Of a DNA stretch of 56,355 nucleotides, positions 1,640-39,806 are shown piece after piece. The DNA lies in the NCBI GenBank assembly GCA_028693285.1, contig JAQUVQ010000010.1:1-56355 (forward strand). The letters are read 5' to 3'. Every line of letters begins with the position of its first letter. Positions within the stretch are counted from its first letter, which is position 1. This DNA comes from Smithellaceae bacterium (GTDB taxonomy: Bacteria > Desulfobacterota > Syntrophia > Syntrophales > Smithellaceae). The position numbers and the translations under genes are program-made. Under the pieces are notes generated by a model. The model was not told where the DNA came from. It ran no database searches and saw nothing but the letters and a program-made list of their open reading frames with translations.

Positions 1640-4600
1640 ATGCTATCCAAATTCTTTCTGGACCGTCCCGTTTTCGCCTGGGTCATCGCCATCGTCGTCA
1701 TGGCGCTGGGCGTTATCGCGATCTATATTTTGCCCGTCTCCCAGTATCCGCAGCTGGCGCCTCCCTCCATCGCGATTTCATCCTCCTACCCGGGAGCCTC
1801 GTCCGAAACGGTTGAAAACAGCGTGACGCAGGTCATCGAGCAGAAGATGACCGGTCTGGACAATCTGATCTACATGTCCGCCTCCAGCGATTCGGCGGGC
1901 GGCTCCCGTCTGGAGCTGACGTTCGCTCCGGGAACGGACCCGGACATTGCCTGGTCCAAAGTGCAAAACAAGGTCCAGTCCGCTCTGCCCAGCCTTCCCG
2001 ACGTCGTCGAAAATCAGGGAGTGCAGGTCAGCAAATCCACACGGAACTATCTGATGATCGTCGGGCTGATTTCAGAAGACGGCTCGATGGACGGAACAGA
2101 CCTGAGGGATTACGCCAAGTCCAACCTGGAAAAAATTATGGCCCGCGTCCCCGGCGTCGGCGAGGTGGAGGTTTTCGGCGGCGGCTATGCCATGCGCGTC
2201 TGGCTCAATCCTAATGAAATGACGGAGTATCATCTGACGGTTGACGATGTTCTGGCCGCGCTCAAGGCCTACAATGTGGAGGTATCCGCCGGCCAGTTCG
2301 GCGGGGCGCCCGCCGTTCCCGGCCAGCGCTTGAACGCGTCCATCGTCGTCCAGAACATGCTTTCCACTCCGGAAGAATTTGCCGCCATCCCGATTCGGAC
2401 CAATCCCGACGGCTCCGTGGTTCGCATCCGCGACGTGGGACGAACGGAATTGGGAACGGAGATTTACGACATTCAGGTTTCATACAGCGGCAAGCCTTCA
2501 GCGGGCATCGCCATCCGCCAGTCGCCGGGCGCGAACGCGCTCGACACGGCCGACGCGGTCAAGGCGAAAATGGCCGAGATGAGCCGCTTTTTCCCTCCCG
2601 GAATGAAAGTCGTTTATCCGAACGACTCCACGGTCTTCATCAAGGTGTCCATCAATGAAGTGATCAAGACGCTCGTGATCGCCATTGTGCTGGTGTTTCT
2701 GGTCATGCTGCTTTTTCTGGGCAGCATCCGCGCCACGCTGATCCCCACCATCGCCGTGCCGGTGGTTCTTCTCGGAACCTTCGCCGTGCTGGCGCTTTTC
2801 GGCTTTACCGTCAACATGCTGACGATGTTCGCCATGGTGCTGGCGATCGGCCTGCTGGTCGATGACGCGATTGTCGTCGTCGAAAATGTGGAGCGCATCA
2901 TGACGGAGGAAGGGCTTTCCCCCAAGGAAGCCACGGCCAAATCCATGGAGCAAATCACCAGCGCGCTGGTCGGCATCGGTCTGGTGCTCTCCGCCGTCTT
3001 CGGCCCGATGGCGTTTTTTCCCGGCTCCACCGGCATCATCTACCGCCAGTTCTCCATCACGATCATGTCGGCCATGCTGCTTTCGGTGGCCGTCGCCCTG
3101 ATTCTGACGCCCGTACTGTGCGCCGGGCTCCTCAAGCCCGTCCAGGCCGGACATCAGCCGGCGGAAAACGCCGCCTCTTTCGCCCGGCCGTTTTTCCTGT
3201 GGTTTGACCGCGTTTTTTTCAGACTGCGCGACCGTTACGTCGGACTGGTCGGCCATTCGCTTTCCCGGAAAAAACGCTACCTGGTCGTCTTTCTGGTCAT
3301 CGTCGCGGTCATGGGCGTTTTGTTTCTGCGCATGCCCAGGGCCTACCTGCCGGATGAAGATCAGGGAATCCTGCTGGCACAGGTCATCATGCCCACCGGC
3401 GCCACGCTGGAACAAACCGGAGAAATCACGACGCAGATCCAAAAATACTTTGAGGAAAATGAAAAAGAAGCCGTGGAATCGCTGATGACGATCACCGGCA
3501 TCGGATTTTCCGGACGCTCGCAGAACAACGGCATGGTATTTATCCGGCTGAAGGACTGGCATCTGCGCGACCGGGCGGATCTGAAAGCGAAGGCGATTGC
3601 CGGCCGGGCGATGTTCGCCCTTTCCGGTATCCGCAACGCCATGGTGTTTACCTTCCAGCCTCCGTCCGTCATTGAACTGGGCACGTCCATCGGGTTCGAT
3701 TTTCAGCTCCTTGACCGCGGAGGGGTGGGGCATTCGGCACTGACGAACGCCCAGTACCAGCTTCTCGGCCTCGCGGCAAAGGATCCGCGGGTTGCCAAAG
3801 TCCGGCCCAACAGCATGGAAGACGTCCCGGAATACCGCATCGACGTGGACTGGGAAAGAGCCGGCGCACTGGGGGTTCCCATCTCATCCATCCACAGGAC
3901 GCTGTCCGCCGCCTTCGGCAGCGCCTACGCCAACGACTTCATTCAGGGCGGGCGCATCAAACGAGTGTATATTCAGGCCGACGCCCCGTACCGCATGCTG
4001 CCCAAAGATCTGGAAAATCTCTATGTCCGCAATACGCAGGGCCGAATGGTGCCTTTTGCATCCTTTGCCACGGGCCGCTGGACGTCGGGGCCGCCCCGGC
4101 TCACGCGCTACAACGGCTTTCCTTCCATCAACATCTGGGGAGAACCGGCCCCGGGACGCAGTTCGGGAGAAGCCATGCAGGCGATGGAGGAGGCCATGGA
4201 AAAACTTCCTTCCGGCTTCGGCTTTGACTGGAGCGGCCTTTCCTACCAGGAGCGGATGGCCGGCACCCAGGCGCCGCTGCTGTACGCCTTTTCCATTTTT
4301 GTGATTTTTCTGTGTCTGGCCGCTCTGTACGAAAGCTGGACAATCCCCATTTCGATTCTGCTCGTGCTTCCGCTGGGCGTCATCGGCGGCATTATCGCGT
4401 CCAGCGCGCGCGGGCTCGCCAATGACGTGTATTTTCAGATCGGACTCCTCACCACACTGGGGCTGACCACCAAAAACGCCATCCTGATCGTCCAGTTCGC
4501 CAAGAGCGGTCTGGAGCGCGGCATGGGGCTTCTGGAGGCGACCCTGGAAGGGGCGAAGCTGCGCTTTCGTCCGATCGTGATGACGTCGCTGGCCTTTGGA

Positions 4601-35663: not shown

Positions 35664-35880
35664 GCTAATGTTTTCATTAATTTCCAGGAGAACTTTCAGC
35701 GCATCGCTTTGCGTGGCCCGGTTAAACGCCTCCTGCACTTGTTTCAGCGGATACCTTGCGGTGACGATTCTGTCGAGGGGCTTGCCGGGATACTTCCGCA
35801 TGATGTTCAGGCCGTCGGCAAACCGGCCGCCGCCACGCTTTCCATATACCTTCTTTTCAATGGTTTCTGAAATTTTCGAT
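35646..35880 (-). pseudogene. 3' remnant of a zinc-type (MDR) alcohol dehydrogenase gene
   Basis: Read on the minus strand, the frame ending with TAA at 35646-35648 gives a typical C-terminus of medium-chain dehydrogenases: GRFADGLNIMRKYPGKPLDR, IVTARYPLKQVQEAFNRATQ and ALKVLLEIN. Only about 75 residues remain; the catalytic and NAD-binding domains are absent and no start codon with a ribosome site is seen. A promoter-like TTGACT-17-TATATG stands just upstream (35903-35931, minus). The plus-strand open frame over the same bases (35668-35979) is a shadow. Confidence 0.75.
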
Positions 35881-35983
35881 CCTTTTCTTATAAACGGGAG
35901 AACATATAGAAAACGGGATATTGTAAGTCAAGGAGTTCTTGCCTGGCGTTCTTGCCTGGTGATTTTTATTTGTCAATAATTGG

Positions 35984-36010
35984 ACAGTCTAATAAATTGT
36001 CTTAGACTGT
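35984..36010. promoter_or_regulatory. 9-bp inverted repeat upstream of the MerR-cyclase gene
   Basis: ACAGTCTAA (35984-35992) and TTAGACTGT (36002-36010) are perfect complements separated by 9 bases. The half-site ACTGTATAA at the right arm is repeated as ACTGTATAAG over the -10 element (36041). This is a good candidate operator for the MerR-type domain encoded downstream. Confidence 0.55.
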
Positions 36011-36020
36011 ATAATTATAC

Positions 36021-36049
36021 TTGACAACTGTGTTTTTGAACTGTATAAG
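36021..36049 (+). promoter_or_regulatory. Near-consensus promoter of the MerR-cyclase gene
   Basis: TTGACA (36021-36026) and TATAAG (36044-36049) are separated by 17 bases, 70 bases before the start codon. A GGGGG just before the ATG may serve as a weak ribosome site. Confidence 0.75.
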
Positions 36050-36118: not shown

Positions 36119-37699
36119 ATGAATGATGACGCACCGATAAGGAATCAATGGATTAGCAGCCTGGAGGTCATCAATAAAACAGGAATTTCCAGGGCAACGC
36201 TTAACAACTACATTAAGATGAACCTTCTGCCCCGTCCTGCCGTCAAAAGGCCGGAAACAACAGATGCCCGCGCCCGAATGCTCGGCTATTTTCCTGACTC
36301 CGTGATTGATACAATTATACAGATCAAAGAATTAAAAAAGCAGGGTTTCTCCATGGACGCCATCACGGAGAGGTTGAAACAATCTCGCTTAACCCCGGCT
36401 ATTGATTCAGGAGTCATGAATATGCAGGAAGAAACCCAAAGCAAAGGGGCCCGGGATGAATCAGAAGCCCCTCTCCGGGGACACTTTCTTTCTCAAGCGA
36501 TCTCCGGGGACGCCGGCCAGCCATTCAAGGTGACCATCAACGATATCACCTTCCCTGCTTACCTGCTGAATAATAATTACGAGATTGACTGGATTAACAA
36601 GGATGCGGAGAGTTCCATTTTTCAGGAAGAAATTCACACCATCAAAGAGCCGACGTCAAGAAACATCTTTCAGCTCCTCTTGCGCAGCCGACATGAAAAC
36701 CAACAGGCCCGAAGCGCGCTCATCGACTTTCATCTCAGTTTTGTAAAGGGCAAAGCCGTCAAACCCGAACTGCAGCATTTGTATGACGGCATGTCGCCCA
36801 GGGAAAGAGAAAATCTTGAAAAAAGATATAATTGCATCGAGTCCCCGCCCCGGCAGGCCGTCAACAAAATCCCCCTGAAGCTATCCGGGCAAAAAGGAAC
36901 GCCGATTGCCAATGATGTCTATTATATGGTTTTTCGCGAAGGAACACTCTTTATTCACGCGCCGAAAGCCTGTCAGAATCAGGGAATCGCTGATTTGTTT
37001 GCCTCCCGATCCAGTGTGATTAATGACCTCCTCAAACAGCGAATGCCCACGCTGGTTTCCTTTTGCGTGCTCGTGGCCGACCTGCAGAACTCGGTGCGCA
37101 TTTGCGCCGAATTGCCTCCGGAGGAATATTTTGAACTCATCAACCAGGTATGGGCCTGCGTGGAAGGCACATTCAAGCGGTACTACGGCACCTACGGCAA
37201 GCATACGGGCGATGGGCTGCTTTATTATTTTCTCAAGGAGCGGGACAATCAATACATGATGAACGCAATTGCCTGTGCGCTGGAAATACGCGAAAACATG
37301 AAAAAATTAAGCATGGACTGGAAAATGCGCAAAGGCTGGTTCAATGAATTGTGCCTCAATATCGGCATTAATGAGGGTCAGGAATACTTCGGCACTATTC
37401 CTTCATCCCCCAATATTGAATTTACCGCTCTGGGAGACACCGTCAATTTTGCCGGACGGTTATCCGATTTTGCCCGGTTCGGCGCGATCTGGGCAACAAA
37501 AAATTTGATCAACAAGCTTTCCGTGGAAGATCGTTCCGGCATTCGCTTTGGAATTCGGCACAGGGAAAACGACAGGGAGATACTGATTGAAAACTCATTC
37601 GGCCGCGTCATGGACATGATCGTGCCTGATAGTCAAAATTTCAACAAATTCATGGATATTGCCACACTGGCGATCACCGAAGTTGTGGAAAAGCGCTAG
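36119..37699 (+). CDS. MerR-type HTH / class III nucleotidyl cyclase fusion protein
   Basis: The 526-residue protein has three parts. Residues about 10-90 form a MerR-like helix-turn-helix (SSLEVINKTGISRATLNNYI ... IIQIKELKKQGFSMDAITER). Residues about 135-260 may be a PAS-like sensor (FPAYLLNNNYEIDWINKDAE). Residues about 305-500 are a class III cyclase domain: metal aspartates D321 (FCVLVADLQNS) and D365 (YGKHTGDGLLYYF), base-selecting K361, and FTALGDTVNFAGRL with N443 and R447 of the transition-state pair. The Thr in FTALGD (T436) is usual in class IIIb enzymes. The cyclase looks catalytically complete; K361 favours ATP (cAMP). No membrane helix is visible. Combining a DNA-binding domain with a cyclase is unusual. 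A strong promoter and inverted repeat lie upstream. Confidence 0.82.
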   Translation: MNDDAPIRNQWISSLEVINKTGISRATLNNYIKMNLLPRPAVKRPETTDARARMLGYFPDSVIDTIIQIKELKKQGFSMDAITERLKQSRLTPAIDSGVMNMQEETQSKGARDESEAPLRGHFLSQAISGDAGQPFKVTINDITFPAYLLNNNYEIDWINKDAESSIFQEEIHTIKEPTSRNIFQLLLRSRHENQQARSALIDFHLSFVKGKAVKPELQHLYDGMSPRERENLEKRYNCIESPPRQAVNKIPLKLSGQKGTPIANDVYYMVFREGTLFIHAPKACQNQGIADLFASRSSVINDLLKQRMPTLVSFCVLVADLQNSVRICAELPPEEYFELINQVWACVEGTFKRYYGTYGKHTGDGLLYYFLKERDNQYMMNAIACALEIRENMKKLSMDWKMRKGWFNELCLNIGINEGQEYFGTIPSSPNIEFTALGDTVNFAGRLSDFARFGAIWATKNLINKLSVEDRSGIRFGIRHRENDREILIENSFGRVMDMIVPDSQNFNKFMDIATLAITEVVEKR

Positions 37700-38042: not shown

Positions 38043-39806
38043 TCATGCTTTGATGACAAAATTCTTATCCTGGAAAAGCCTCTGGCAGACAGATACCACT
38101 TGCGGATCGTAGAGAATCCCCTTCTTTGAGTTGATTTCCTCCAGCGCGGCTTCCAGCCCCAGGGCGGGCCGGTAGGGACGGTGCGTCGCCATGGCTTCCA
38201 CCACATCGGCCACGGCCAGAACTCTCGACTCCAGAAGAATGTCGTTCCCGGTCAAACCATTCGGATATCCGGACCCGTCCATCCGCTCATGGTGTTCCAG
38301 AACCATTCTGGCGATGGGCCAGGGAAAATCCACGTCCTTCAGGATGTCAAAGCCGGACTGGGCATGCATCTTGATTAGGCTGAATTCAATGGCGGTCAGA
38401 CGCCGGGGCGTACTCAGAATCTCGGCCGGGACGGAAATCTTGCCGATGTCGTGGATGATGCCGGCCATTCTCAGTCCCTCGATCTGATCCGAACTCAGGT
38501 GCATTTCCGTGCCCATGGCCCGGGCCAGGTCGGCCACCCTTCTCTGGTGTCCGGCGGTATACGGATCTTTGGTTTCGACGACGGAGGCAATGGCCTGAAC
38601 GGTTCCGCCCAGGGCTTTGCGCAGACGGTCCACGCTTTCCTTTTTTTCAGTGATGTCTTCTACGATGCCTTCCAGGTAGGGCTCATTGTTTTGATCATCG
38701 CGGACGATTCTCATGGTGCGGGATATCCAGATTTTCCGTCCGTCCCTTCGGTAAAACTGAATTTCCTGCCCCCGGACGACCCCTTCCCTCTGGACCTGTT
38801 CAATGACTTTTGTCCGATCTTCGGGATTGACGTAAATCCGCCGGGCAAGGTCGGACTGTGCATCAAGCAGTTCTTCCGGCGCGTCGTATCCCAGGATCCT
38901 CGCCATGGCCTGATTGGCCATGATGAATTTCCCTTCACATGTAGTCTGGTAGATCCCCTCCTGGGCGTTTTCAAAGATGGTGCGGTATTTTTCTTCGCTT
39001 GCGCGAAGCTCTTCCTGAGCCTGTCTTCGGTCGGTGATGTCCGTGATGAAGCTCAGGGAGGCAGGCACGCCGTCCCAGGTAATGATCCTGGCGTTGATTT
39101 GCAGCCACTTGACCGTCCCATTCGAGGTAACGGCCCGAAACTGATAATCGTTTTCCGGGATTTCCCCCTTCAATCTCATTTTGTGCCGGTTCAGAACGAT
39201 CTTACGATCATCGGGATGGATAAAAGATATAAACGGGCGGGTGGTGATGACTTTTTTAGGGTATCCGACAATATCGGCGAGGGCGGCATTGGCAAACTGA
39301 ATGGTCTCGTCTTTGGCAATCAGGATTCCCTGCCCCGCACTTTCAAAAAGCAGACGGTAATTTTCTTCGCTTTTCTGAAGCGCCGTTTCCACCTTCTTGC
39401 GGTGGGAGATGTCCATGAAGCTCCCCAGCGTCGCCCTTTGCCCTTCGTACGAGATGGGCGTGATGGTCTCCAGAGCCCACATGATCTCCTGGTGCTTCTT
39501 GACGAACCGGTACTCATAGGGTTTAAGGCTTTTCGTTTTGAGGCTTCGGATCGCTTTTTCCCTGACGGCCGCCCGATCCTCCGGGTGAATGTAACCCAGA
39601 GAACGGGTGCCGATCAGTTCCTTTTCGGAATAACCGGTCAACTTTTGGTACAGTGGGCTGACGTAGACAAACGTGCCGTTTTGAACGATGTAAATTCCGA
39701 CGCCGGCGCTGGATAAAATGGCCTCGGCCAGAGATGAAAATTCGCCCTCGCCAAAAAGCTTTTTTTGGGTCGCCTTTGATGTTGGATTGCTGGACTCAGT
39801 ATTCAA
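38043..39806 (-). CDS. Triple-PAS sensor with HD-GYP phosphodiesterase domain
   Basis: This 587-residue soluble protein has three PAS/PAC units (about residues 25-140, 145-265 and 270-395; e.g. SSAGVGIYIVQNGTFVYVSP, SAGQGILIAKDETIQFANAA, NAQEGIYQTTCEGKFIMANQ), then an HD-GYP domain (about 405-580). The metal site is HDIGK (H452, D453) with AGHQRRVADLARAMG before it and HHERMDGSGYPNGL after it, so the HHExxDGxGYP signature is complete. Such domains hydrolyse cyclic di-GMP or related dinucleotides. PAS input suggests control by redox state or a small ligand. The start is the first ATG; no membrane segment is seen. Its neighbour across 343 bases, on the opposite strand, is a nucleotidyl cyclase. 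Confidence 0.9.
   Translation of the reverse strand: MNTESSNPTSKATQKKLFGEGEFSSLAEAILSSAGVGIYIVQNGTFVYVSPLYQKLTGYSEKELIGTRSLGYIHPEDRAAVREKAIRSLKTKSLKPYEYRFVKKHQEIMWALETITPISYEGQRATLGSFMDISHRKKVETALQKSEENYRLLFESAGQGILIAKDETIQFANAALADIVGYPKKVITTRPFISFIHPDDRKIVLNRHKMRLKGEIPENDYQFRAVTSNGTVKWLQINARIITWDGVPASLSFITDITDRRQAQEELRASEEKYRTIFENAQEGIYQTTCEGKFIMANQAMARILGYDAPEELLDAQSDLARRIYVNPEDRTKVIEQVQREGVVRGQEIQFYRRDGRKIWISRTMRIVRDDQNNEPYLEGIVEDITEKKESVDRLRKALGGTVQAIASVVETKDPYTAGHQRRVADLARAMGTEMHLSSDQIEGLRMAGIIHDIGKISVPAEILSTPRRLTAIEFSLIKMHAQSGFDILKDVDFPWPIARMVLEHHERMDGSGYPNGLTGNDILLESRVLAVADVVEAMATHRPYRPALGLEAALEEINSKKGILYDPQVVSVCQRLFQDKNFVIKA

Follow-up and report, generated by a model that had tools for sequence, protein, structure and literature searches.

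A single open frame in a Smithellaceae genome encodes a MerR-type helix–turn–helix (HTH), a PAS-like domain and a complete class III nucleotidyl cyclase, and the gene lies behind a promoter with three copies of a palindrome that accompanies the gene family. We consider it reasonably probable (about 0.6) that the product is a soluble class III adenylyl cyclase, regulated by a ligand, and acts as a repressor of its own gene; cAMP synthesis, the ligand and the direction of regulation are the parts of this reading that we infer. The gene is located in the 56,355-nt stretch of DNA that was analysed (the window), where a sequence-only reading had placed an HTH, a PAS-like part and a cyclase in one frame. 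This was confirmed by Pfam, by the frame itself, which starts with ATG and is open throughout, and by the folded middle part. The coordinates proposed for the gene were right, and the promoter and operator region at 35980–36049 belongs to the same unit.

Features of the cyclase gene and its promoter in the window
Feature	Position	Strand	Basis or description
Putative operator O1, TTGGACAGTCTAA	35980..35992	.	match to family palindrome
Putative operator O2, TTAGACTGTATAA	36002..36014	.	perfect consensus, sole perfect match in genome
Sigma-70-like promoter, TTGACA (36021-36026), 17-bp spacer, TATAAG (36044-36049)	36021..36049	+	direct reading of sequence
Putative operator O3, TTGAACTGTATAA	36036..36048	.	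overlaps spacer and −10 box
Whole gene: MerR-type HTH, PAS-like domain, predicted class III adenylyl cyclase	36119..37699	+	526 aa
MerR-type winged HTH, aa 11-89	36149..36385	+	Pfam, PDB profile search, AF2, Foldseek
Variable linker, probably disordered, aa 90-137	36386..36529	+	many indels among relatives; pLDDT <50, aa 91-136
PAS-like (probably MltR/MmyB-type) domain, aa 138-283	36530..36967	+	AF2 model, Foldseek
Helical connector to cyclase, aa 284-312	36968..37054	+	modelled helices 284-295 and 297-307; conserved RxxVIxDLLKQRMPTL
Class III cyclase domain, aa 313-498 (end ~500)	37055..37612	+	Pfam, solved-structure alignment, catalytic residues
C-terminal tail, aa 499-526	37613..37696	+	conserved KFMDIATLxITE motif

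The N-terminal part was recognised by Pfam as MerR_1 (residues 16–88; E = 4.9e-5; score 23.8 bits, cut-off 21.6). All eight full-length orthologues, scanned singly, matched both MerR_1 and Guanylate_cyc, as did the window protein. An HTH profile also found MerR regulators in the PDB by sequence, weakly. The full-length AF2 model was built from a four-sequence alignment and is usable for residues 11–90 and 138–283 only; across most HTH blocks its pLDDT was ~70–83. In Foldseek, MerR-type regulators made up most of the top matches to the HTH part (CvkR, DNA-bound MtaN, DNA-bound GlnR and NmlR) with probabilities of 0.99–1.00; no E-value was below 0.001, owing to the length and mostly low confidence of the query model. 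The usable model, the Foldseek matches and the MerR_1 score above cut-off agree with the earlier proposal that residues 10–90 form a winged HTH. We also looked for the long antiparallel coiled-coil dimerisation helix that follows the HTH in MerR proteins, and found in the model only a helix at residues 79–90 followed by the low-confidence linker.

The middle part had been described as a PAS-like linker. Its PAS likeness held, whereas its role as a mere linker did not, since AF2 and Foldseek indicate a folded PAS-like domain. Modelled alone, it reached moderate confidence (pLDDT 73.9, pTM 0.74), and its best Foldseek match was a weak one to MltR (3pxp; probability 0.96, E = 0.03, TM 0.47), followed in the list by ordinary canonical PAS domains. 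MltR is an HTH and PAS-like regulator that was crystallised with a fatty acid and has reported conserved residues Pro110-Ala111, Asn124 and Asn149 (PMC3406030), which P146-A147, N160 and N182, conserved in the PAS-like domain here, resemble. MltR/MmyB-type proteins share the order of HTH then PAS-like domain and, to judge from the model, probably a similar fold, whereas MltR has an Xre-type HTH and lacks a cyclase. Pfam gave no match for the PAS-like domain of the window protein (weak PAS_GdpP matches occurred in two relatives only), and a PDB profile search with this part returned nothing meaningful. Because Pfam does not recognise the domain, its assignment to the MltR type is probable rather than shown.

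The C-terminal part matched Guanylate_cyc in Pfam (residues 315–472; E = 2.5e-8; score 34.1 bits, cut-off 21.9), and among solved structures it is closest to class III adenylyl cyclases, namely CyaB (3r5g), other bacterial enzymes and photoactivated cyclases. Six catalytic positions (D321, K361, D365, T436, N443 and R447) align with the solved class III cyclases and have canonical spacing: 44 residues from D321 to D365, K361 four before D365, seven from T436 to N443 and four from N443 to R447. The two metal-binding Asp, the transition-state Asn and Arg and the substrate Lys and Thr are all present in the window protein, as the sequence-only reading had listed them. CyaB, CyaC and the photoactivated cyclases share these residues and spacing but lack a DNA-binding domain. 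Lys and Thr at the two substrate positions are the usual bacterial adenylyl-cyclase pairing and, because they occupy these positions here, the predicted product is cAMP. The cyclase part did not fold in the full-length AF2 model (pLDDT ~30, four-sequence alignment). The same genome encodes several cNMP-binding domains, several of them with the GE...R[ST]A cassette that is typical of cyclic-nucleotide binding, and at least one further class III cyclase (a 762-aa frame on contig C68).

Full-length relatives with 30–75% identity and an identical domain order were found in ~20 other genomes and, on this comparison, the architecture is far beyond chance. Relatives of the same domain order occur in three of the 20 genomes of the window's genus (its own included), in 16 of 53 genera within its class and, beyond the class, in scattered Desulfobacterota families; 16 of 395 phylum genomes matched. 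The gene is single-copy in all listed genomes but one, and at the thresholds used the HTH and PAS-like domain were confined to family members (~300 phylum genomes). Many loci come from MAGs and could hide assembly errors; nevertheless, the architecture recurs in many independent genomes. Judged by this distribution, the protein belongs to a conserved family, present as a single copy in part of the Desulfobacterota, and is not a one-off fusion. NCBIfam has no model for the family (NmlR, of MerR type, was matched in 2 of 18), and the plasmids searched contained no homologue.

Footprinting of the upstream regions of relatives yielded an operator pattern with the loose form TTNNACWGTNNAA and the refined consensus TTAKACWGTMTAA. 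One to five copies of the palindrome TTAKACWGTMTAA lie upstream of nearly every family member. The loose form was present in 29 of the 32 upstream regions of relatives, with 51 matches in the 32 regions (one pair of which is the same gene) against 0.18 expected from dinucleotide shuffles. In the window it has only three matches, all at the promoter of the cyclase gene (35980–36048); the full 2.68-Mb genome (99% complete) has six, including these three. These three sites lie 77–133 bp upstream of the cyclase gene and, when up to two mismatches to TTAKACWGTMTAA were allowed, only they retained the ACWGT core and intact outer T/A arms in the genome. Across 28 genomes there were 28 perfect sites, of which 26 were at the family gene (24 upstream and two within its first 215 bases), and site density in the collected neighbourhoods was 5.0 per kb upstream of the family gene versus 0.06 per kb elsewhere. 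In three members of one clade (L081:6183, L083:6388 and L095:5858), a perfect or near-perfect copy is found at the same place inside the coding sequence, ~205–211 bases in, and may be an intragenic operator. As a regulon marker the motif was rejected, with genome-wide counts of the loose pattern generally not above the reversed-pattern control.

Since the palindrome is co-conserved with the gene, we infer that it is bound by the family protein, and with the palindrome following the gene across many families and gene orders, no alternative binder suggests itself. The recognition region of the HTH (SRATLNNYI) is almost invariant and is the best-conserved stretch family-wide, as would be expected if the HTH reads the invariant ACWGT core. 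From the placement of the sites, the DNA-binding domain seems to act on hardly any promoter but that of its own gene. The proposal that the protein joins transcription control and second-messenger synthesis is therefore upheld in that both domains are in one chain, and narrowed in breadth to control essentially of its own promoter. The arrangement of TTGACA with an operator and −10 box, separated by a spacer of 15–17 bp, recurs upstream of most relatives, and in many members an operator overlaps the −10 box. The −10 sequence of the window gene, TATAAG, was absent from the output of the consensus scanner, which demands T at the last −10 position.

In the preferred reading, the protein would dimerise, since two subunits together make up a class III active site and the operator is palindromic. 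An HTH dimer on O1–O3, over and beside the −35 and −10 boxes, would limit transcription of its own gene; the operator over the −10 box behind a 15–17-bp spacer in many members fits repression. The PAS-like domain would bind a small molecule, perhaps a fatty acid or another metabolite, whose effect would pass through the helical connector to alter the activity of the cyclase and perhaps the affinity of the protein for DNA. As outgoing signal, cAMP would be read by the cyclic-nucleotide-binding proteins that the genome encodes, and DNA binding would act as a dosage control on the enzyme and not as a route to a regulon. A link to fatty-acid or acyl-CoA metabolism is a lead only, drawn from the resemblance to MltR and from acyl-CoA dehydrogenase/ETF/FixCX neighbours in some families.

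The protein could instead be an auto-activator that uses classical MerR-style distortion of a poor promoter to turn on its own gene once a ligand occupies the PAS-like domain or the cyclase. The HTH is indeed of MerR type, and O3 lies in the spacer and −10 region, in agreement with MerR operators normally being found between the −35 and −10 boxes. However, classical MerR activators act on promoters with 19–20-bp spacers, whereas the window promoter has a 17-bp spacer and those of relatives 15–17 bp, the boxes are near consensus and additional operators lie upstream of the −35 box, so the classical layout was not found here. Near-consensus boxes and a 17-bp spacer, in place of 19–20 bp, lead us to prefer autorepression and to regard auto-activation as unlikely. 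For the same reasons of spacer length and upstream operators, the protein is assigned to the MerR family by its HTH only and not as a classical MerR activator.

Comparison of the relatives revealed decay of the cyclase. Both Asp, Lys, Asn and Arg are retained in 17 of 29 complete HTH-plus-cyclase proteins and not in the other 12. Those 12 include all eight complete members that lack the PAS-like domain, each of which has lost a metal-binding Asp or the Lys. We count intactness in 17 of 21 PAS-containing members, versus none of the eight PAS-less members, in favour of sensor–enzyme coupling. PAS loss and catalytic loss were associated when ancestry was ignored (Fisher, 1e-4), and the tree gave eight changes for catalysis and five for PAS, with several separate losses; its deep branches are weakly supported, and only one independent pair lies on well-supported branches. 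A phylogenetically corrected test had too few independent pairs for significance, and the link between PAS and catalysis cannot be called independent of ancestry. In dead-cyclase forms the HTH recognition region persists, being 67–79% identical where the dead cyclase drops to 29–38%, and operators persist in most. One member (L092:6037-6876) consists of the HTH and PAS-like domain only, without a cyclase, and another (L058, a 166-aa frame) of the HTH and a short unknown part only. Based on these sequences, the cyclase is dispensable within the family. The fixed core is the HTH and operator, because both persist in dead-cyclase forms and the cyclase-less L092 exists, with the cyclase retained mainly where the PAS-like domain is retained.

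These forms bear on another explanation, in which the protein is a transcription factor whose cyclase domain mainly binds nucleotide or mediates dimerisation. Catalysis would be secondary or lost, and the protein would pass information on ATP or a similar molecule to its own promoter and perhaps to a neighbour gene. This explanation would accommodate the 12 of 29 complete relatives that lack catalytic residues yet keep the HTH and mostly the operator, as well as the form with HTH and PAS-like domain only. We think it quite unlikely: the window protein, with 16 others from distant families, retains both metal-binding Asp, Lys, Asn and Arg, a sign that catalysis has been under selection in these lineages. 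A separate, improbable reading treats operator DNA as a regulatory ligand of the enzyme: a promoter-docked dimer would differ in cyclase activity from a free dimer, so that the protein would measure operator occupancy and make cAMP only once the promoter is saturated or released. If so, the recurrent dead-cyclase lineages would be what is left of such a switch, with a transcriptional role only. A larger regulon, reached through weaker or different sites with the own-promoter array merely the strongest target, could claim a few imperfect sites elsewhere (C25, C77 and C83) and one perfect site away from the family gene in each of G180 and G303, but is very improbable given that in most genomes the loose pattern is no commoner genome-wide than its reversed control and that no further clusters of sites were listed for the window's own genome.

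Besides the dependence of the PAS–catalysis link on ancestry, further points count against autorepression by a ligand-regulated adenylyl cyclase. Several dead-cyclase members have a function other than making cAMP, because they keep the HTH and operators with a dead cyclase, and this could be the basic function in the whole family. In addition, another target is possible in about six neighbourhoods where the array faces a divergent B12-radical-SAM gene.

A constant operon partner was sought in the collected neighbourhoods and none was found, as gene order varies. Recurring but not constant neighbours are guaB–dnaE, the divergent B12-radical-SAM gene and, in some families, acyl-CoA dehydrogenase/ETF/FixCX genes. 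The B12-binding radical-SAM gene lies divergently across the operator-bearing intergenic region in L077, L078, L079, L081, L094 and L095, where it may be a second target. In three members of one family (L085, L086 and L089), a FixX-like ferredoxin gene is directly upstream on the same strand; two of these loci also have ETF-QO-like flavoprotein and Etf genes, and L089 has an acyl-CoA dehydrogenase. Within the window, 35676–35858 (−) is the remnant of an alcohol dehydrogenase gene of which only the C-terminal end is left (61 aa, which match the C-terminus of an intact copy at 2943–3908, beside the orthologue in L032, with 74% identity). A gene for a PAS-repeat, HD-GYP-like protein (38043–39806, −) is convergent with the cyclase gene and has a relative in the same place in L032 and L076; therefore, two second-messenger genes adjoin in this genus.

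The sequence-only reading knew of no well-described example with this domain order. No paper on a MerR–cyclase fusion was found, in a search that left subscription journals mostly outside and hence is not proof of absence, whereas a cyclase with a DNA-binding domain has precedent. Mycobacterial Rv0386 combines a cyclase, an AAA-ATPase and an HTH in one protein (PMC3938503), and a CHD+LuxR subfamily exists among mycobacterial class III cyclases (PMC3466318); like the window protein, these join a class III cyclase and an HTH DNA-binding domain in one soluble protein (PMC3938503, PMC3466318). In Rv0386, however, the cyclase comes first, then the AAA-ATPase and then a LuxR-type HTH, without a MerR domain or PAS-like sensor, whereas here a MerR-type HTH is followed by the PAS-like domain and cyclase, with no AAA domain. 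We know of no dedicated self-operator for Rv0386-type proteins. MerR regulators (CvkR, MtaN, GlnR, NmlR and BmrR) share the N-terminal MerR-type winged HTH and the palindromic operator at the promoter, and differ in their 19–20-bp spacers (here 15–17 bp) and in their usual effector, a short metal-, drug- or cobalamin-binding part in place of the PAS-like domain and cyclase. The HTH class, domain order, PAS-like sensor and dedicated self-operator set the family apart from the mycobacterial cyclases; the idea of joining a cyclase to an HTH is already known.

The protein lends itself to a clean test of how a second-messenger enzyme may be governed by direct feedback through DNA that it binds itself, with one protein, one operator array and one target in the genome. 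The operator sequence is directly usable in a gel-shift or reporter test. The many dead-cyclase relatives form a natural series for asking what a transcription factor gains from an enzyme domain, and what the enzyme gains from the PAS-like sensor.
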